Shown in pieces: positions 3,366 to 14,133 of a DNA stretch of 64,000 bases (position 1 is its first letter; each line of letters begins with the position of its first letter). The notes beneath the pieces were generated by a model, which did not search any database, was not told the origin of the DNA, and saw nothing but the letters and a program-made list of their open reading frames with translations. Both the position numbers and the translations under genes were made by a program. This DNA comes from Leisingera aquimarina DSM 24565 (lineage in GTDB: Bacteria > Pseudomonadota > Alphaproteobacteria > Rhodobacterales > Rhodobacteraceae): assembly GCF_000473165.1 (NCBI RefSeq), contig NZ_KI421504.1:682596-746595 (forward strand). Direction: 5' to 3'.

Positions 3366-3451
3366 AACTTCTCAGTGAAAAGAAAGCGCCGGGCCGGGCC
3401 CAACTGTGCAGGGACTTCTTCAGATGTTCCTAAGTAGGCGGGAGTTCTGCG

Positions 3452-4237
3452 TCAGCGCCCCTTCCAGACCGGGTCGCGTTTTTCGGCAAAGGCACGGGCA
3501 CCTTCCAGATTGTCCTCGGAACCATAAAGCACATCCACCGTCTGCAGCTGGCGCTGCGTGATGCGGTTCATGGCATCCTGAAACTTTGAGTCCTCAGCGT
3601 CGCGCACGATCTCCTTAATCGCCGCATAAACCAGCGGCGGGCCGGACGCGAGCAAGCGCGCCAGCTCCCAGGCGCGGTCCATCAGTTGGTCCGCCGCAAC
3701 GATCTCGTTCACGAGCCCCCAGCGGTTGGCCTCTTCAGCATCGAACCAGCGGCCGGTCAGCAGCAGTTCCATGGCAATGTGGTAGGGGATCCGTTTGGGC
3801 AGCTTCACACTTGCCGCGTCGGCCACCGTGCCAGAACGGATTTCCGGCAACGCAAATGTGGCGTGTTCGGCGGCGATGATCATGTCCGCTGACAGAGCCA
3901 GCTCCAGCCCGCCGCCGCAGGCAATGCCGTTCACAGCGGCAATCACCGGCTTGTTCAAGTCTCGCAGTTCCTGCAGCCCGCCAAAGCCGCCAACGCCGTA
4001 ATCGCCGTCCACCGCATCGCCGTCAGCCGCCGCCTTCAGGTCCCAGCCCGGGCAAAAGAACTTCTCGCCGCCACCGGTCAAGATTGCCACCCGCAACTCC
4101 GGATCATCGCGGAAGTCCCGGAACACGTCCCCCATCACCCGGCTGGTCTTAAGGTCGATGGCATTGGCCTTGGGCCGGTCCAGCGCCACTTCTAGAATGG
4201 CGCCTTCACGGCGGGTTTTCACGGGGCTGTCGCTCAT
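3452..4237 (-). CDS. caiD: carnitinyl-CoA dehydratase-type enoyl-CoA hydratase
   Basis: This crotonase-fold enzyme of 261 residues closely follows CaiD, which interconverts crotonobetainyl-CoA and L-carnitinyl-CoA. The segment VALDRPKANAIDLKTS near the N-terminus, GWDLKAAADGDAVDGDYG in the middle and the C-terminus AFAEKRDPVWKGR are CaiD hallmarks. Both glutamates matching the catalytic pair of E. coli CaiD are present, in GGGLELALSAD and LPEIRSG. The frame extends upstream, but the ATG at 4237 has an ideal AGGAGG seven bases before it and starts MSDSPVKTRREG. It ends a minus-strand run with the acyl-CoA ligase (gap 50 bases). Substrate specificity beyond a CaiD-like acyl-CoA is inferred. Confidence 0.9.
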   Translation of the reverse strand: MSDSPVKTRREGAILEVALDRPKANAIDLKTSRVMGDVFRDFRDDPELRVAILTGGGEKFFCPGWDLKAAADGDAVDGDYGVGGFGGLQELRDLNKPVIAAVNGIACGGGLELALSADMIIAAEHATFALPEIRSGTVADAASVKLPKRIPYHIAMELLLTGRWFDAEEANRWGLVNEIVAADQLMDRAWELARLLASGPPLVYAAIKEIVRDAEDSKFQDAMNRITQRQLQTVDVLYGSEDNLEGARAFAEKRDPVWKGR

Positions 4238-4287
4238 GTCGTCTCCTCCTGGCATGCTCCATGCCATTGCTGTTTCAGGCCGAAGCC

Positions 4288-6318
4288 TCAATACTTCCTG
4301 CGCATCAGCGCATCCGCTGCCACCGCATCCGAGGGGGTGCAAAGCAACGGGTTAATCTCGATCTCTTCCAGCCCGAGCGCGTTTTCCATCACATAGGCTT
4401 CCACCGCCCGGATCGCGCGCAGGATCGCCTCACGGTCCGCTGCCGGGGCACCGCGGTAGCCGTCCAGCAGCTTCGCCATGCGCAGAGACTGAAGCGCAGC
4501 CTCGATCTCCGCATCCGAAGCGGGCAGCAGGAAGGAGGCGCTGTCCTCCATCAGCTCAGTCAGGGTACCGCCCGCTGCCAGCGTCATGACAAAGCCATGC
4601 GCCGGATCCTTGACCACGCCGATCAGCAGTTCAGCGACCGCGCCGGTGACCATTTCCTCGACCAGGAAACGCGAGGCCGGCATGCTGAAGGCGGCGTCGC
4701 TCACTTCCTGGCCGGAATTCAGGTTCAGCGCCACAGCGCCCGCTTCAGTCTTATGGGCTACACCTTCGCCCTTCAGCACAACGGGAAAGCCGACATCCAC
4801 GGCAACCGCGCGGGCATTTGTTGCTGAAGCCGCCCGTTTGGACCGCGGAACGCGCAGCCCGTAACTTGCCAGTTGCCACTTGGCCTCGGCCTCGGGCACC
4901 AGGTCCGGTTCAACAGCCGGTGTCGGCAGCAGCAGCGGTGCCGGCGCTTCCGGCAGCGGCATGCCGGCGGCCTCACAGGCGGCAATGGCCTCGCTGAGCC
5001 CCGCAAAAGGCACCACACCCGCTTCCATCAGCCGCGCCGCCACATCCTCCGGCAGCAGCTCTGGCAGGGTTGCTACCAGGCCGACATTGGCACCGGTGTT
5101 CTGATGCGCGCCAATCGCCGCCTGAATGGCGCATTCCCAGTCCGAGGCCTCGCAGCGGTCGCCGCGCGGGAAGTCAGCGATCAGCATGGTCATCGCCAGC
5201 TGCGGGTCCATCATCGCCGAAAACGCCTTGGTCATCGCCTCCGTGTCGCGCCAGATATAGGTGTGGTAGTCGAGCGGATTTGCCAGCGCCACCATCGGCC
5301 CAAGGGCCGCCCGCAGATCGGTTTTCTGCTGCGCGTTCAGCGGCGGAAATTCCACGTTGCGCCCATGGCCGGTATCCGCCGCCAGGCTTGCTTCCCCGCC
5401 GGAGCAGCTGATGGTTGCAATGCGGTTCGAAGGCAGCCGCCCCGCCGCATGCAACAACTTCAGCGTCTCCAAGAAGGACGGCAAGTCATCCAGACGCGGA
5501 ATGCCAAGGCGTGAGAGCAAAGCCCCGGCCCCCGCGTCACCACCCGCAAGCGAGGCGGTATGAGAAACAGTTGCGGCCTGGGCCTCGGCCGATCTGCCGA
5601 CTTTCAGCGCGATGACCGGCTTTCCCAGTTCGCGGGCACGGGCGGCCAGCGCCTCAAACGCGCGCAGATCGCCAAAGCCCTCGATATGCAGGCCCAGCGC
5701 GGTAACGCGCTCATCTTCCAGCAGCGCCTCGCCAATCGCGGCAATGCCGGACTGAGCCTGATTGCCAGCCGTAACCACATAGGCCACCGGCAGACCGCGC
5801 GTCTGCATGGTCAGGTTGATGGCGATGTTGGAGCTTTGAGTGACCAGCGCCACGCCCTTCTCTGCCCTTGCGCCGCCATGCTGGTCCGGCCACAGCAGGG
5901 CACCATCCAGATAGTTGATGAAGCCATAGCAGTTGGGCCCTAGGAACGGCATTTCGCCTGCCGCCTCCAGCAATTGTGCCTGCAGATCGGCGCCCTCGGC
6001 ATCTTCTGCGGCCGCTTCCAGGAAGCCGGAAGCAAAGCACACCGCTCCGCCGGTACCGCGCACCGACAGCGCCCACACCACCTCGATGGTGACAAAGCGG
6101 TTTACCCCGATGAAAGCCGCATCCGGTGCGTCCGGAAGGCTGTCCACGTCCTTGAAGGCAGGCAGCCCCGCAACTTCTTCCGCCTTGGGGTGAACGGGCC
6201 AGATGGTGCCCTCAAAGCCCATCTTCTGGCATTGCTCGATCACCAGGCGGCACCATGCGCCGCCGCCGATCACGGCAATGGTCTTAGGGCGGAAGAGGCG
6301 GGAAAGGTCGCGTGTCAT
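4288..6318 (-). CDS. acyl-CoA synthetase, ADP-forming (acetate-CoA ligase family)
   Basis: A 676-residue fused ADP-forming acyl-CoA synthetase. It runs from an N-terminal CoA-binding Rossmann domain (TIAVIGGGAW), through two succinyl-CoA-ligase-like domains, to a C-terminal ATP-grasp domain from about residue 460 (GFPVVLKGEGVAHKTEAGAV). The segment ATVSHTASLAGGDA holds the histidine expected to be phosphorylated during catalysis. The family makes acyl-CoA from acid, ATP and CoA, or runs the reverse reaction. Lying between acyl-CoA dehydrogenase and CaiD-like hydratase genes, it may activate gamma-butyrobetaine or carnitine, which is an inference. The ATG at 6318 follows a 225-base gap holding a large inverted repeat. 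Confidence 0.88.
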   Translation of the reverse strand: MTRDLSRLFRPKTIAVIGGGAWCRLVIEQCQKMGFEGTIWPVHPKAEEVAGLPAFKDVDSLPDAPDAAFIGVNRFVTIEVVWALSVRGTGGAVCFASGFLEAAAEDAEGADLQAQLLEAAGEMPFLGPNCYGFINYLDGALLWPDQHGGARAEKGVALVTQSSNIAINLTMQTRGLPVAYVVTAGNQAQSGIAAIGEALLEDERVTALGLHIEGFGDLRAFEALAARARELGKPVIALKVGRSAEAQAATVSHTASLAGGDAGAGALLSRLGIPRLDDLPSFLETLKLLHAAGRLPSNRIATISCSGGEASLAADTGHGRNVEFPPLNAQQKTDLRAALGPMVALANPLDYHTYIWRDTEAMTKAFSAMMDPQLAMTMLIADFPRGDRCEASDWECAIQAAIGAHQNTGANVGLVATLPELLPEDVAARLMEAGVVPFAGLSEAIAACEAAGMPLPEAPAPLLLPTPAVEPDLVPEAEAKWQLASYGLRVPRSKRAASATNARAVAVDVGFPVVLKGEGVAHKTEAGAVALNLNSGQEVSDAAFSMPASRFLVEEMVTGAVAELLIGVVKDPAHGFVMTLAAGGTLTELMEDSASFLLPASDAEIEAALQSLRMAKLLDGYRGAPAADREAILRAIRAVEAYVMENALGLEEIEINPLLCTPSDAVAADALMRRKY

Positions 6319-6350
6319 TCTTTAGCGGATCCGCTGTTTGAGAGTTCGGG

Positions 6351-6540
6351 ATGCCTCCGGCGGGGATATTTTCCGCAAGAAGAAGTAAGTTTTCATTAAC
6401 CAGAATCACACTCAATGGCTGTGCGGCACAGGCGGGGACGCCGATGGCCGTGCAAGGGGAAGAGAGCTTCTCTCTTTACCGGGGGCGGCTCTTGCTGGCC
6501 GCCCTTTTCCTCTTGCGGAAAATATCCCCGCCGGAGGCAT
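6351..6540. repeat. perfect 30-bp inverted repeat flanking 130 bp
   Basis: Bases 6351-6380 are the exact reverse complement of 6511-6540 (each arm contains TCCGGCGGGGATATTTTCCG on one strand). The whole unit, about 190 bases, occupies most of the gap between the SelW-like gene and the acyl-CoA synthetase. The right arm ends 3 bases from the SelW-like stop codon. Arms with a CCTCCGGCGGGGATATTT core resemble intergenic motifs seen repeatedly in roseobacter genomes, stated from general familiarity. It could be a small non-autonomous element, two opposed copies of a repeat, or an RNA structure. Confidence 0.85.
6483..6508 (+). terminator. terminator-like hairpin with T-run on the plus strand
   Basis: GGGCGGC at 6483-6489 pairs with GCCGCCC at 6498-6504, followed directly by TTTT. 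The orientation fits a plus-strand transcript, yet both flanking genes are on the minus strand, so it may belong to the repeat element rather than to a gene. Confidence 0.4.
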
Positions 6541-6543
6541 TCC

Positions 6544-6846
6544 TCACTCGCCTCCAGCACGGCGGTCGAGATGGCCCAGATCCAGCTCCGGGTCAATCCG
6601 GTCGCGCACGCGGGTTTTCAGTTCTTTCACATCCGGAAAGCCACTGTCCCGTTTACGTTCCCAGACCAGCTCCTGATCGACACGGATCTCAAAGATCCCG
6701 CCCAAATCTCCGGGAATCAGTGTCACCCCGCCCAAGGCGCCTTGGAAGGTCTGCAGCAGTTCCTGCGCCATCCAGCCCGCCCGCAGCAGCCAGTTGCAGC
6801 CGGTGCAATAGGTAATGGTCACAACAGGTTTCCCAGGTAGGGTCAT
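6544..6846 (-). CDS. SelT/SelW/SelH-family thioredoxin-like protein
   Basis: A 100-residue protein of the Rdx (selenoprotein W-like) family. The motif YCTGCNW near residue 13 carries a CxxC pair where vertebrate relatives have CxxU. The central GDLGGIFEIRVDQELVW and the basic region WERKRDSGFPDVKELK are typical of the family, which has a small thioredoxin-like fold of ill-defined function in bacteria. It starts 3 bases after the acyl-CoA dehydrogenase stop, so the two are co-transcribed. An electron-transfer or thiol-protective role for the neighbouring enzymes is only a guess. Confidence 0.88.
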   Translation of the reverse strand: MTLPGKPVVTITYCTGCNWLLRAGWMAQELLQTFQGALGGVTLIPGDLGGIFEIRVDQELVWERKRDSGFPDVKELKTRVRDRIDPELDLGHLDRRAGGE

Positions 6847-6849
6847 GGA

Positions 6850-8013
6850 TCAGCCTCCGACGGCGCGCAGCATCTCGCGGCTGATGATGTGCCGCTGGAT
6901 TTCACTGGTGCCCTCCCAGATACGCTCCACCCGCGCGTCGCGCCATATGCGTTCCAGAGGCAGCTCGTCCATCAGACCCATGCCGCCGTGAATCTGGATC
7001 GCTTCATCGGCGACGAAGGCCAGCATCTCAGTGGCTTTCAGCTTGGCCATCGACATGTCACTCTCGGTGACTGTGCCCTGATCGAACTTCCAGCCGGCTT
7101 CCCAGGTCAAGAGGTTCGCCGCCTTCAGCTCCAACGCCATATCGGCAAGCTTGAAGGAAATACCCTGGAACTTACCGATCTGCTGGCCGAACTGCTTGCG
7201 TTCCGCGGCGTATTCCACCGAATGCTGCAATGCGCGTTCCGCCCGGCCCAGGCAAGTGGCCGCCACCTGCAGGCGGGTGGCGCCCAGCCATGTGTTGGCA
7301 ACCTCGAACCCCTTGTCGACCTCGCCCAGGATGGCTGAGGACGGCAGGCGGCAGTCGTCGAACTCCAGCACCGCGTTGGTGTATCCCCGGTGGCTGACGT
7401 TGCCGTAGCCGTCGCGCACCTCAAATCCTGGCGTGCCCTTGTCGACAAAGAAGGCGGTGATCTTTTTCTTCGGCCCGCGCGGGGTATCCTCAACCCCGGT
7501 GGCCATGAAGCAGATGGCAAAATCAGCAATGTCGGCGTGGCTGATGAAATGCTTGGTGCCGTTCAGGATCCAGTCATCGCCGTCTTTGCGCGCGGTCGCC
7601 TTCATGCCGCGCAGATCAGAGCCTGCATCCGGCTCGGTCATCGCCAGGCAGTCCCATTTCTCGCCCTTCATGCAAGGCACCAGGTATTTCTCTTTCTGTT
7701 CCTCGGTGCCTGCCAGCAGGATGTTCGAAGGCCGCGCAACACCGGTCCAATGCAGTGCATAGTTGGCGCGGCCCAGCTCCTTTTCATACATCAGCCAGGT
7801 CAGCGTATCGAGGCCGGCGCCGCCCGCTTCCTCAGGCATGTTGGCCGCATAAAGCCCTGCCTCCATCGCCTTTTTCTGCACCTCACGGATCACATCCATG
7901 TCCAGGCGGCCGGTGCGCTCGATCTCCGCCTCATGCGGATACAGCTCCTTTTCCACAAAGGCGCGGGTGGTCTCCACGATCATCGACTGTTCTTCGGTCA
8001 TCCCGAACTGCAT
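6850..8013 (-). CDS. acyl-CoA dehydrogenase
   Basis: A 387-residue flavin-dependent acyl-CoA dehydrogenase, full length for the family. Signatures are CLAMTEPDAGSDLRGMKATA (middle-domain substrate and FAD contacts), ERKQFGQQIGKFQGISFKLA and the C-terminal RIWEGTSEIQRHIISREML, whose WEGTS glutamate corresponds to the catalytic base of short-chain members. It would oxidise an acyl-CoA to a trans-2-enoyl-CoA. Beside a CaiD-type hydratase, gamma-butyrobetainyl-CoA is an attractive substrate, by inference. A GAAGGAA Shine-Dalgarno precedes the ATG by seven bases. It heads the minus-strand operon and is divergent from the AraC-type regulator. Confidence 0.93.
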   Translation of the reverse strand: MQFGMTEEQSMIVETTRAFVEKELYPHEAEIERTGRLDMDVIREVQKKAMEAGLYAANMPEEAGGAGLDTLTWLMYEKELGRANYALHWTGVARPSNILLAGTEEQKEKYLVPCMKGEKWDCLAMTEPDAGSDLRGMKATARKDGDDWILNGTKHFISHADIADFAICFMATGVEDTPRGPKKKITAFFVDKGTPGFEVRDGYGNVSHRGYTNAVLEFDDCRLPSSAILGEVDKGFEVANTWLGATRLQVAATCLGRAERALQHSVEYAAERKQFGQQIGKFQGISFKLADMALELKAANLLTWEAGWKFDQGTVTESDMSMAKLKATEMLAFVADEAIQIHGGMGLMDELPLERIWRDARVERIWEGTSEIQRHIISREMLRAVGG

Positions 8014-8052
8014 GGCGGTGTTCCTTCGGCAAATCTGTTGCGGATCAGACTA

Positions 8053-8065
8053 GGCGCCTTGCGCC
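8053..8065. promoter_or_regulatory. palindrome in the divergent acd/regulator intergenic region
   Basis: GGCGC-CTT-GCGCC lies in the 80-base space between the divergent acyl-CoA dehydrogenase and GATase1/AraC regulator genes. A short perfect dyad here is a plausible operator, but it is GC-rich and could occur by chance. Confidence 0.3.
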
Positions 8066-8093
8066 GCCGCATCGTGCAGAGATAGAAGGAATC

Positions 8094-9032
8094 ATGCGAA
8101 GTTGGACAAAAGATAACGCTGCGGCGCAGCAAACGGATGTGCTGCTGTTTGATGCCTTTTCGGCCCATTGCCTGGCCAACACGGTGGAGCCGTTGCGCGC
8201 CGCCAACACCTTTGCCGCCCGTCAGGTCTATGCCTGGCGGTTCCTGACGCTGGATGGCGGGCCTGCGGTGTCCTCCTCAGGCATGGAGGTGCGCGCGCAT
8301 GGGCGGCTGGCGGAGTGCAGCGGCGATCTGCTGATCGCGATGCCGTCTTATGACTTCCTGCGCCATGCCACGGTGGCCACGGAGCGGGCGCTGAAATCGG
8401 CGGCGCACCGCTACAGGGTGCTGGCGGGTTTTGACACCGGCGCCTGGCTGCTGGCGCAGGCAGGGCTGCTGGACGGGCGGCAGGCCACCATCCACTGGGA
8501 GGAGCTCAGCCGCTTTACCGAAGCCTTCCCGGAGGTCCAGGCCGAACGTGCCCGGCAAGTCTGGGATGGCAACCGCATCACCTGCACCGGCGCGCTGGCG
8601 GCCTTTGACACCATGATGGAGCTGATCGGCGAACAGCACGGCGCCGCCCTGCGGCTGGAAGTGGCCACCCTGTTCATGAGCCCCGAAGCAACCGAAACCC
8701 AGGACCCGATCCTGGCCCGCAGCAAACCCGTGGCCCGCGCGGTGGCGGTGATGCAGGCCAATCTGGAGGCGCCGCTGCCCATCGCCGCGGTGGCCCGCCG
8801 GACTGGCCGCAGCCAGAAGGATCTGGAGGCCCGGATGAAAGCCGAACTTGGGGCGACCCCGCAGGCGGTTTACCGGCGGCTGCGGCTGATACAGGCCAGA
8901 AAGCTTGTGTTAGAGACGGATTTGAGCGTTTCCGAGATTGCCTTGCGCTGCGGCTATGACGACCCCAGCGCCCTCACACGGGCGTTCAAAAGTGAATTCG
9001 GCACCACACCCCGGTCGTTGCGAAACAGCTAG
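8094..9032 (+). CDS. GATase1/AraC (GlxA-type) transcriptional regulator
   Basis: A 312-residue regulator. The N-terminal DJ-1/PfpI (class I glutamine amidotransferase-like) domain begins at DVLLFDAFSAHCLANTVEPL and covers about residues 10-190. A C-terminal AraC double helix-turn-helix includes VARRTGRSQKDLEARMKA and ISEIALRCGYDDPSALTRAF-like sequence (here VSEIALRCGYDD). The same architecture occurs in the Pseudomonas regulators CdhR (carnitine) and GbdR (glycine betaine), which matches the CaiD-type operon it faces. The ATG at 8094 has a GAAGGA site. Its stop overlaps that of the convergent membrane-protein gene through a shared CTAG. Confidence 0.92.
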   Translation: MRSWTKDNAAAQQTDVLLFDAFSAHCLANTVEPLRAANTFAARQVYAWRFLTLDGGPAVSSSGMEVRAHGRLAECSGDLLIAMPSYDFLRHATVATERALKSAAHRYRVLAGFDTGAWLLAQAGLLDGRQATIHWEELSRFTEAFPEVQAERARQVWDGNRITCTGALAAFDTMMELIGEQHGAALRLEVATLFMSPEATETQDPILARSKPVARAVAVMQANLEAPLPIAAVARRTGRSQKDLEARMKAELGATPQAVYRRLRLIQARKLVLETDLSVSEIALRCGYDDPSALTRAFKSEFGTTPRSLRNS

Positions 9033-10867: not shown

Positions 10868-12670
10868 ATGTCAGAATACATTTTTCCGAGCTGGCCCGGC
10901 TCCGCCCCACAATTGATCGACGTCGCAGCCGGCCGCGCGCTGGCGGATACAGTGATCCGGCAGGGGATCTGGGTCAATGTCCACACCCGCGAGCAGCTGC
11001 CGGGCCATGATATCGCCATCGTGGCCGGCCGCATTGCTTATGTCGGGCCTGATGCCTCTTATTGCACCGGGCCTGAGACGCAGATCATAGAGGCGAATGG
11101 CCGATACATGATCCCGGGCCTCTGCGATGCCCATATGCATATTGAATCCGGCATGCTGACCCCGGCGGAGTTCGCCCGCGCGGTAATCCCGCATGGCACC
11201 ACCTCGATGTTCACCGACCCGCATGAGATTGCCAATGTGCTGGGTCTGGACGGGGTGCGCTACATGCATGACGAGGCGCTGATGCAGCCCGTCAACATCT
11301 TCACCCAGATGCCCAGCTGCGCGCCCTCGGCACCAGGGCTGGAGACCACCGGCTATGAAATCTCTTCTGAGGACGTGGCGGAGGCAATGAACTGGCCCGG
11401 CATTATCGGCCTGGGGGAGATGATGAACTTCCCCGGTGTCGCAAATGCCGACCCCAAGATGCTGGCAGAAATCGCCGCCACCCAGCGCGCAGGCAAGACC
11501 GTGGGCGGCCATTATGCCTCTCCCGATCTTGGCCCTGATTTCGCCGCCTATGTGGCAGGCGGTCCGGCGGATGACCACGAGGGCACCTGCGAGGCCGACG
11601 CCATCGCCCGGGTGCGCCAGGGGATGCGGTCAATGATGCGGCTGGGTTCTGCCTGGTATGATGTTGAAAACCAGATCACCGCGGTCACGGAGAAGGGTCT
11701 GGATCCACGCAACTTCATTCTTTGCACCGACGACTGCCATTCCGGCACTTTGATCAATGACGGCCATATGAACCGGGTGGTGCGCCACGCGATTGCCTGC
11801 GGCTGCGATCCGGTAATTGCACTGCAGATGGCCACCATCAACACCGCCACCCATTTCGGGCTGGAGCGGGAGATCGGCTCCATCACTCCCGGCCGCCGTG
11901 CCGATGTGATCCTGACCTCGGACTTGCGCGAACTGCCTGTCGAAGTTGTCATCGCCCGCGGGCAGATCGTCGCAGAATCAGGCTCTATCAAAGTCGACTG
12001 TCCCCATTACGACTGGCCCGCCAGCGCCCGTGGCACCGTGCATCTGGGTCACGAACTGACGGCGAAAGACTTTGGACTTGCCGCGCCCGAGGGCGCCAAT
12101 GCGGTCACCGCCAATGTGATCGGCGTGGTCGAAAACCAAGCCCCGACCAAGGCGCTGCAGGCAGAACTTCCGGTGGTGGACGGGCTGGTCGAGGGCGCTG
12201 GCGATGTCTGCCAGATCGCCCTGGTCGAGCGCCACCGCGCCACAGGCGGCGTCACCAACGCCTTTGTCTCGGGCTTCGGCTACCTGGGTAAGATGGCAAT
12301 GGCCTCCACTGTGGCGCATGACAGCCACCACATGATCGTCGTTGGCACCGATCGCGACGAGATGGCGCTGGCGGCCAACCGCCTGGCCCAAGTGGGAGGC
12401 GGTATCACCCTTTACAAGGACGGCAAGGAACTGGCTCTGGTCGAGCTGCCGATTGCCGGTCTGATGTCCGACAGCCCCGCAACCGACGTGGCCGCCAAGG
12501 CACAAGTCATGATGGAGGCGATGGAGGCCTGCGGCTGCAGCCTGAATAATGCCTATATGCAGCACTCGTTGCTGGCCCTGGTCGTGATCCCGGAGCTGAG
12601 GATTTCCGACCTTGGTCTAGTCGACGTGCGCACTTTCCAGAAAATCCCGGTAATCGAGCCTGCTCAATGA
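10868..12670 (+). CDS. ade: adenine deaminase
   Basis: A 600-residue amidohydrolase that converts adenine to hypoxanthine and ammonia. The metal-binding HxH is in GLCDAHMHIESGM, and further marks are GHYASPDLGPDF, the CTDDCHSGTLINDGH segment and the C-terminal adenine-deaminase domain (VAHDSHHMIVVGTDRDEM). Length and motif order match bacterial Ade. Its stop overlaps the start of the AMP nucleosidase gene (ATGA at 12667-12670), so the two are translationally coupled. Together they take AMP through adenine to hypoxanthine. Confidence 0.95.
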   Translation: MSEYIFPSWPGSAPQLIDVAAGRALADTVIRQGIWVNVHTREQLPGHDIAIVAGRIAYVGPDASYCTGPETQIIEANGRYMIPGLCDAHMHIESGMLTPAEFARAVIPHGTTSMFTDPHEIANVLGLDGVRYMHDEALMQPVNIFTQMPSCAPSAPGLETTGYEISSEDVAEAMNWPGIIGLGEMMNFPGVANADPKMLAEIAATQRAGKTVGGHYASPDLGPDFAAYVAGGPADDHEGTCEADAIARVRQGMRSMMRLGSAWYDVENQITAVTEKGLDPRNFILCTDDCHSGTLINDGHMNRVVRHAIACGCDPVIALQMATINTATHFGLEREIGSITPGRRADVILTSDLRELPVEVVIARGQIVAESGSIKVDCPHYDWPASARGTVHLGHELTAKDFGLAAPEGANAVTANVIGVVENQAPTKALQAELPVVDGLVEGAGDVCQIALVERHRATGGVTNAFVSGFGYLGKMAMASTVAHDSHHMIVVGTDRDEMALAANRLAQVGGGITLYKDGKELALVELPIAGLMSDSPATDVAAKAQVMMEAMEACGCSLNNAYMQHSLLALVVIPELRISDLGLVDVRTFQKIPVIEPAQ

Positions 12671-14133
12671 TAACAACAAAACACCCTGGCCACCCGCCGA
12701 CCGAAACGTTCAACGACGCAACCGAAGCGGTGGACCGGCTTGAGTTGCTTTACCGGCAGGCCACCGGCTTCATCTGCGAGGAATTCAGCCGTGCAATGGC
12801 TGACGGGGCGCCGGACAACCAGCGCATCCGCGCCTATTACCCGGAGATCCGGTTCTCCACCACGAGTTTTGCCCAGGTGGACAGCCGCCTCAGCTTTGGT
12901 CATGTCTCTGCGCCTGGCACCCATGCCACCACGGTGACGCGGCCGGACCTGTTCCGCAATTACCTGATCCAGCAGATCAACTTGCTGATCCGCAACCACG
13001 GCCAGCCAGTGACCATTGATGTCTCTAAGACTCCAATCCCGGTGCATTTCGCCGTTGCTTCGCGCCCCGATCTGACGGTGCCGCAGGACGGTGCAGCCGG
13101 GTTCACCCTGCGCGACGTGTTTGACGTGCCGGATCTGTCGACCACCAATGACGACATCGTCAACGGCACCTATCAGCCGCCTAATGGCACCGGACCGTTG
13201 GCTCTGTTCACCGCGCAGCGCATCGATTACTCACTGGCCCGGCTCAGCCACTACACTGCCACCAGTGCCGAACATTTCCAGAACCACGTGCTGTTCACCA
13301 ATTACCAATTCTATGTCGCCGAATTTGAAGCCTATGCCCGCGCCCAACTGACGGATCCAGAGTCCGGCTATACCAGCTTTGTCAGCACCGGCGACCATGA
13401 GATCACAGATCCTTCGGCAGCGATTCCGGAAATCAGCAAGCTGCCGCAGATGCCCACCTATCACCTGAAGCGCGCAGACGGAGGCGGCATCACCCTGGTC
13501 AACATCGGTGTCGGCCCGTCCAATGCCAAAACCGCCACCGATCATATCGCGGTGCTGCGCCCGCATGCCTGGCTGATGGTCGGCCATTGCGCAGGCCTTC
13601 GGAACACTCAGGCACTGGGAGACTTTGTACTGGCGCATGGATACTTGCGCGAAGACCACGTGCTGGATGACGACCTGCCGGTCTGGACGCCGATCCCGGC
13701 GCTGGCGGAAATCCAAGTCGCCCTCGAAGAGGCTGTAGCCGAGATCACCGAATACAAGGGATTTGACCTTAAACGGATCATGCGCACCGGCACCGTCGCC
13801 ACCATCGACAACCGCAACTGGGAATTGCGCGATCAATCCGGCCCGGTACAGCGCCTGTCCCAGTCCCGCGCCGTCGCTCTGGACATGGAAAGCGCCACTA
13901 TCGCCGCCAACGGCTACCGCTTCCGGGTGCCCTACGGCACGCTCCTGTGCGTCTCTGACAAGCCGCTGCATGGGGAGCTGAAGCTGCCAGGCATGGCCTC
14001 GGACTTTTACCGGACACAGGTTGCGCGGCATCTGCAAATCGGCATAAGAGCGATGGAGCGACTGCGCGGAATGCCTTTGGAGCGGCTGCACAGCCGTAAA
14101 TTGCGCTCGTTCGATGAAACGGCCTTCCTCTAG
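12667..14133 (+). CDS. amn: AMP nucleosidase
   Basis: A 488-residue enzyme, close to the E. coli Amn length of 484, that hydrolyses AMP to adenine and ribose 5-phosphate. It has the N-terminal Amn-specific domain (IRAYYPEIRFSTTSFAQVDS) and the C-terminal phosphorylase-like nucleosidase domain (TLVNIGVGPSNAKTATDH, RPHAWLMVGHCAGLR, ALDMESATIAANGYRFRVPY). The glutamate in DMESATIA is the usual base-binding acidic residue of the superfamily. It overlaps the preceding ade by four bases, so adenine made here feeds its operon partner. Confidence 0.95.
   Translation: MITTKHPGHPPTETFNDATEAVDRLELLYRQATGFICEEFSRAMADGAPDNQRIRAYYPEIRFSTTSFAQVDSRLSFGHVSAPGTHATTVTRPDLFRNYLIQQINLLIRNHGQPVTIDVSKTPIPVHFAVASRPDLTVPQDGAAGFTLRDVFDVPDLSTTNDDIVNGTYQPPNGTGPLALFTAQRIDYSLARLSHYTATSAEHFQNHVLFTNYQFYVAEFEAYARAQLTDPESGYTSFVSTGDHEITDPSAAIPEISKLPQMPTYHLKRADGGGITLVNIGVGPSNAKTATDHIAVLRPHAWLMVGHCAGLRNTQALGDFVLAHGYLREDHVLDDDLPVWTPIPALAEIQVALEEAVAEITEYKGFDLKRIMRTGTVATIDNRNWELRDQSGPVQRLSQSRAVALDMESATIAANGYRFRVPYGTLLCVSDKPLHGELKLPGMASDFYRTQVARHLQIGIRAMERLRGMPLERLHSRKLRSFDETAFL

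Follow-up and report, generated by a model that had tools for sequence, protein, structure and literature searches.

A variant operon for the upper gamma-butyrobetaine/carnitine pathway, as proposed from its genes in Leisingera aquimarina DSM 24565

Introduction

Some bacteria handle gamma-butyrobetaine as a CoA thioester, and the question raised by the locus considered here is whether a short run of genes in Leisingera aquimarina DSM 24565 turns this compound into carnitinyl-CoA. The genes lie at positions 3452-9032 of the window, i.e., the whole stretch of 64,000 nucleotides that was analyzed (contig NZ_KI421504.1, positions 682,596 to 746,595), where the minus strand carries, in this order, genes for an acyl-CoA dehydrogenase, a SelW-like protein, an acyl-CoA ligase of the ADP-forming type and a CaiD-like hydratase, with a regulator gene divergent from the run. 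A preliminary description of the window had named these five genes, their families and their arrangement, all of which were found again in the open-frame list and by family scans, and had supposed that the set activates, dehydrogenates and hydrates gamma-butyrobetaine. Gene context, co-occurrence, the closeness of the hydratase to CaiD and the published use of the ligase BcoAB support this supposition. Judged from the sequences, the operon very probably encodes the upper half of the gamma-butyrobetaine/carnitine pathway of Alphaproteobacteria (gamma-butyrobetaine to crotonobetainyl-CoA to carnitinyl-CoA), by which gamma-butyrobetaine would serve as a nutrient. The pathway is already known from the related soil bacterium Sinorhizobium meliloti, and the locus is another, well-supported member in a variant arrangement, whose local twists are a second dehydrogenase lineage swapped in, a sporadic SelW gene and a conserved operator-like site.

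Results

The ligase and the carnitine dehydrogenase were searched for in 295 genomes of the family (at E 1e-60 and E 1e-70, respectively) and found in 190 and 219 of them. Sixty loci picked from the 190 ligase-matching genomes, down to 45% identity, contain orthologs of the dehydrogenase (60/60), the ligase (60/60) and the hydratase (59/60, locus L103 having no hydratase match) in the same order and on the same strand, and the repetition of this order in 59 loci places it beyond chance. Twenty further loci, chosen as the better matches in other families of the class (four of them shorter than 19 kb), hold all three genes in 18 cases, 17 in that order and one (L171) with the hydratase on the opposite side; one of the remaining two has no dehydrogenase match and the other has the ligase only. 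Of the genes searched for, carnitine dehydrogenase and BKACE are the ones adjoining this trio within the stretch in 15 of the 60 family loci and 9 of the 20 outside loci; BKACE alone is there in a further three and one, respectively. The row on Rhizobium etli p42c consists of a GlxA regulator, a BKACE-type gene, carnitine 3-dehydrogenase, dehydrogenase, ligase, a CaiD-like gene and an ABC transporter, and this full layout is also seen in annotated records of Paracoccus methylovorus and Alloyangia pacifica. Ruegeria pomeroyi DSS-3 has the trio with a regulator, while in the S. meliloti record CP090106 (labelled pSymB, although its 3.7 Mb would rather suit a chromosome) the neighbors of the trio agree, and it stands beside carnitine 3-dehydrogenase and BKACE-type genes.

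The association extends to whole genomes. Under a strict ligase match (E below 1e-160; 177 of the 295 genomes), carnitine dehydrogenase was present in 173/177 genomes as compared to 46/118 of the others (odds ratio 68), and with all ligase matches in 183/190 vs. 36/105. These statistics ignore descent; the control gene xsc (sulfonate use; 186/295 genomes), distributed 143/177 vs. 43/118, gives an odds ratio of 7.3 as the background association, hence descent yields some association, far weaker than that between the ligase and carnitine dehydrogenase. The pattern is nested, the ligase rarely occurring without the downstream carnitine dehydrogenase, as expected of a feeder branch. L. aquimarina itself possesses two carnitine 3-dehydrogenases, which score 802 and 738 bits with the NCBIfam model (cut-off 592) and each have BKACE-type company (Table 1); the two BKACE-type proteins show 75-76% identity to the S. 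meliloti neighbor. A frame of 563 residues at the second of these loci reads as a BCCT transporter.

The genome holds one ligase of this type, fused from CoA_binding_2, Succ_CoA_lig and ATP-grasp_5 domains, the make-up of ADP-forming acyl-CoA synthetases. Its predicted structure (mean predicted local distance difference test score, pLDDT, 90.4) matches best that of DddX (Z 36.6, 655 residues, root-mean-square deviation 3.5, 26% identity), which is also the best solved relative by sequence; 4-hydroxybutyryl-CoA synthetase follows closely (Z 35.5). The phosphohistidine H253 and E213, together with W143 and W356, are invariant across the alignment (85/85 ligases), and Y351 is kept in 84/85; as a guess, W143, W356 and Y351 might hold the trimethylammonium group. 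A preparation of gamma-butyrobetainyl-CoA from gamma-butyrobetaine, ATP and CoA with "gbb:CoA ligase S. meliloti BcoAB" is given in one section of PMC8364193. On the grounds of name, function and operon content, rather than sequence comparison, BcoAB is taken as the ligase of the S. meliloti version of the operon, its fused-domain make-up being deduced from the name and the rhizobial operon, and the window ligase is very likely of the same type. The opinion, expressed in the preliminary description, that an ADP-forming ligase would be unusual for activation is thus very probably wrong: since BcoAB makes gamma-butyrobetainyl-CoA, such a ligase is very likely the type established for this reaction.

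The hydratase shares 57% identity over 262 columns with Escherichia coli CaiD (K-12 record), within the 49-58% found across 65 operon hydratases, and the other crotonase frames matched in the genome (n = 15) do not exceed 36% identity to it. Among the 40 best plasmid records listed, hydratase identity is 80-93% (Ruegeria, Sulfitobacter, Sinorhizobium, Rhizobium and Neorhizobium). Both glutamates of catalytic type, 132 and 157, are present in the window protein, the former in 66/66 aligned hydratases including CaiD. Position 157 is Glu in 50 of these rows and Asp in 16.

The dehydrogenase carries Acyl-CoA_dh domains. By identity to that of the window, sixty operon dehydrogenases separate into 14 at 80-96% (class A) and 46 at 58-63%, with none between; the class A loci besides the window are L051-L054, L060, L066, L075, L080, L092, L094-L097 and L109. 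On a tree of ligase plus hydratase from 60 operons (the window and 59 loci, L103 being omitted for its missing hydratase match), class A needs five changes and a single clade is rejected (approximately unbiased test, p-AU 3e-103), a strong value that is model-dependent, the tree being a quick one. This scatter argues that the dehydrogenase was exchanged more than once within a stable operon, and two lineages thus appear to alternate at one position through repeated gene displacement in place. At a threshold of E 1e-165 a class A match occurs in 46/295 genomes, one copy each, 45 at ≥75% identity (i.e., at least 75%) and one (G052) at 62%. The ligase adjoins it in 25 of the 26 genomes, out of the 46, for which both positions were listed (G052 included); in the twenty-sixth, the fragmented assembly G273, the ligase is on another contig. 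The idea of a recruited housekeeping enzyme is not supported by this single copy per genome, located mostly beside the ligase.

The SelW gene had been counted in a four-gene operon. It is indeed present in the run, yet with matches in 6/60 family loci and 0/20 loci of other families it is a sporadic insertion and was rejected as a pathway component. A DJ-1 protein sits between ligase and hydratase in R. pomeroyi (match in 2/60 family loci), and redox-type small genes (SelW/Rdx, 6544-6846; DJ-1/PfpI, e.g., L118:14017-14622) interrupt the operon in a minority of genomes.

The regulator matches DJ-1/PfpI (DJ-1_PfpI) and an AraC-type helix-turn-helix (HTH_18). The GATase1/AraC architecture of the CdhR/GbdR-type regulator announced in the preliminary description was therefore confirmed, but the protein is not GbdR according to model NF052371 (187.5 bits vs. 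a cut-off of 480). In a tree of 49 regulators it lies among 40 alphaproteobacterial proteins from carnitine or trio loci. Most of the nine other paralogs of the genome fall apart from these 40, while two long-branch ones attach near the base, so that the 40 are not established as one clade. Its two best paralogs (40% and 38% identity) sit beside the two carnitine loci.

The 7-mer TCATGCA is found in 7/25 divergent promoter regions, whereas none of 50 simple shuffles gave more than 5. An operator matrix of 29 positions (CTAANNNTGCAYGAT, gap, then CAA) was trained on the 13 of 24 non-window regions fitting the search pattern, cut from the sequences by script. The held-out window site scores 24.9, with the next best in the 64 kb at 12.7, and the held-out R. 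pomeroyi site 32.0, with the next at 15.7. The untrained region of L080 scores 27.8 and the other 10 of 11 untrained regions stay under 17, hence the site is not universal; the stretches from R. etli, S. meliloti, Paracoccus and Alloyangia gave no such site in the matrix scan. Two further matches to the pattern in the genome, one right where a minus-strand frame begins and one within frames, were taken as chance, neither adjoining carnitine genes.

The coordinates are collected in Table 1. The hydratase probably starts at ATG 4237 rather than in a longer TTG frame, because AGGAGGAG lies immediately 5' of this codon. Intergenic gaps measure 3 nt (dehydrogenase-SelW), 225 nt (SelW-ligase) and 50 nt (ligase-hydratase), and the promoter region between regulator and dehydrogenase 80 nt; the listed regulator frame (7755-9032) is over-extended at its 5' side. 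The terminator-like hairpin is weak, since the consensus scan returned 10 such hairpins in the region vs. 4.8 expected. Further along, window 10868-14133 encodes adenine deaminase and, after it, a conserved protein of 488 residues, presumably resembling AMP nucleosidase; the two recur in 15/60 and 18/60 family loci according to the first, naive gene caller, which also gave shadow frames.

Table 1. Features of the locus and the carnitine loci found elsewhere in the genome
Feature	Position	Strand	Basis or company
CaiD-like crotonobetainyl-CoA hydratase / carnitinyl-CoA dehydratase	3452..4237	-	CaiD identity; NCBIfam NF002936 score; catalytic-type Glu
ADP-forming acyl-CoA ligase, proposed gamma-butyrobetaine:CoA ligase (BcoAB-like)	4288..6318	-	Domains; DddX fold; H253/E213
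Rdx/SelW-like protein, sporadic operon insertion	6544..6846	-	Pfam Rdx 102.7 bits
Acyl-CoA dehydrogenase, minority lineage (class A), proposed gamma-butyrobetainyl-CoA dehydrogenase	6850..8013	-	Acyl-CoA_dh domains
Conserved operator-like site	8057..8085	-	29-position matrix, window held out of training
GATase1-like/AraC-family regulator	8094..9032 (start approximate)	+	Pfam DJ-1_PfpI and HTH_18; tree
Terminator-like hairpin 3' of hydratase gene	3388..3404	-	Consensus scan, weak
Carnitine locus 1, carnitine 3-dehydrogenase	C1:3909836-3911299		With BKACE-type gene and short-chain-dehydrogenase-like frame
Carnitine locus 2, carnitine 3-dehydrogenase	C7:165827-167248		With BKACE-type frame, acetoacetate-CoA ligase (above cut-off) and 563-residue frame

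Discussion

In the pathway that we propose, the ADP-forming ligase would convert gamma-butyrobetaine, and probably crotonobetaine too, to the CoA thioester through phosphohistidine chemistry; the dehydrogenase would oxidize gamma-butyrobetainyl-CoA to crotonobetainyl-CoA and pass the electrons to electron-transfer flavoprotein (ETF), and the CaiD-like hydratase would add water to give L-carnitinyl-CoA. Hydrolysis of this thioester would then probably fall to the thioesterase domain with which carnitine 3-dehydrogenase is fused; a reverse use of the ligase, with recovery of ATP from carnitinyl-CoA, was also considered and would be unneeded if the fused domain acts. Carnitine would be oxidized to 3-dehydrocarnitine, and BKACE-type cleavage would lead through betainyl-CoA to glycine betaine, with genes at two other places of the genome. 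The divergent regulator presumably acts at its operator-like site on the operon, in response to a pathway compound.

Several observations weigh against this reading. The carnitine-degradation genes of the genome lie away from the operon, the matrix scan did not find the operator-like site beside its two carnitine loci, and the BKACE-type protein tested misses its best model (228.3 bits vs. a cut-off of 382). Four strict-ligase genomes (G033, G102, G155 and G212; completeness 74, 95, 92, and 62%, respectively) are without carnitine dehydrogenase. The hydratase scores 335.8 bits with its best model, the CaiD equivalog NF002936, under the cut-off of 500, and is consequently filed as CaiD-like and not as a CaiD equivalog. 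The dehydrogenase is only 31% identical to CaiA and stays far from the CaiA model NF002885 (187.4 bits vs. 540), and its lineage differs from the operon enzymes of R. etli (62%) and S. meliloti (65%). Finally, in CP090106, the S. meliloti record examined, the ligase is split over two frames (L120:6738-8990), either a broken gene or a sequencing fault.

The relationship of the ligase to DddX, an ATP-dependent dimethylsulfoniopropionate (DMSP) lyase, brings in another substrate class, in which the ligase would form DMSP-CoA and then release dimethyl sulfide and acryloyl-CoA for the dehydrogenase and hydratase. DddX is the closest solved relative in sequence and fold, the top NCBIfam match of the dehydrogenase is acryloyl-CoA reductase (306.7 bits, under the cut-off of 640), and DddX Phe435, to which a passage of PMC8163506 ascribes sulfonium binding, corresponds to W394, an aromatic position in 84/85 ligases. 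The lyase base Glu432 of the same account, however, aligns with A391 (Glu in 1/85), and Trp391 with H352 (His in 76/85, never Trp); with both equivalents missing a DddX-like lyase was rejected, though one cation-binding aromatic is kept. Carnitine genes, moreover, repeatedly adjoin the trio, no search having been made for DMSP genes, and a sulfonium-acid operon is extremely improbable. General short-chain fatty-acid oxidation with a promiscuous ligase would suit the generic family names and the short-chain acyl-CoA dehydrogenases that are the best solved relatives of the dehydrogenase, but it is very unlikely in view of the near-constant company of carnitine dehydrogenase (173/177), the kinship of the regulator with those of carnitine loci, and a hydratase much nearer to CaiD than to the other matching crotonases of the genome.

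The two dehydrogenase lineages, scattered as they are on the ligase-hydratase tree, could also indicate that class A genomes run the same chemistry on another trimethylammonium acid, e.g., 5-aminovalerate betaine. Ligase and hydratase, however, do not divide by dehydrogenase class, and class A also accompanies carnitine dehydrogenase and BKACE in some stretches (L092, L094-L097, L109), which leaves such a substrate very unlikely. There is a slim chance that the class A dehydrogenase, together with the operon's own regulator and operator, shifted or widened the operon toward another trimethylammonium or sulfonium acid from plankton of the sea, SelW then guarding the dehydrogenase or its cofactor.

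The gamma-butyrobetaine reading can be set beside known systems. The E. coli caiTABCDE pathway runs through the same CoA intermediates, and CaiD is the counterpart of the window hydratase; CaiA, on the other hand, is annotated as a reductase, and sequence comparison gave no match of CaiC or CaiB to the window ligase. The route that Bazire et al. reportedly described in S. meliloti in 2019 leads from gamma-butyrobetaine to glycine betaine in seven steps, with five enzymes. The S. meliloti carnitine pathway has the dehydrogenase, the ADP-forming ligase and the CaiD-like hydratase (the latter 82% identical) in common with the window, while the window trio stands apart from carnitine genes, includes SelW and uses the other dehydrogenase lineage. 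In a passage of PMC12482172, Bazire et al. (2019) are cited for an S. meliloti dehydrogenase acting on both carnitine and betainyl-CoA. The bbu system of Emergencia timonensis likewise handles gamma-butyrobetaine as a CoA thioester with an enzyme of the acyl-CoA dehydrogenase family, but uses class III CoA-transferases and eliminates trimethylamine, as outlined in parts of PMC8364193. Strain HK4, placed between Agrobacterium and Rhizobium, is described in a section of PMC2131755 as converting gamma-butyrobetaine to carnitine by a route resembling fatty-acid degradation, although a table in the same source lists a hydroxylase for the same strains. For R. pomeroyi, excerpts of PMC12478193 and PMC10130141 report conversion of carnitine to glycine betaine by CdhABC and uptake by cntTUVW, whereas a different route, with gamma-butyrobetaine dioxygenase beside carnitine dehydrogenase and BKACE, is indicated for Arctic SAR11 in a portion of PMC12421898.

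In records of Ruegeria, Rhizobium, Paracoccus and Alloyangia, the operon gives a firm annotation to genes entered under the names "acetate--CoA ligase family protein" and "acyl-CoA dehydrogenase family protein". It also suggests that much of the family can turn gamma-butyrobetaine into carnitine, judging from the strict ligase match in 177 of the 295 genomes sampled, and this conversion matters for the cycling of carbon and nitrogen in soils and in the sea.

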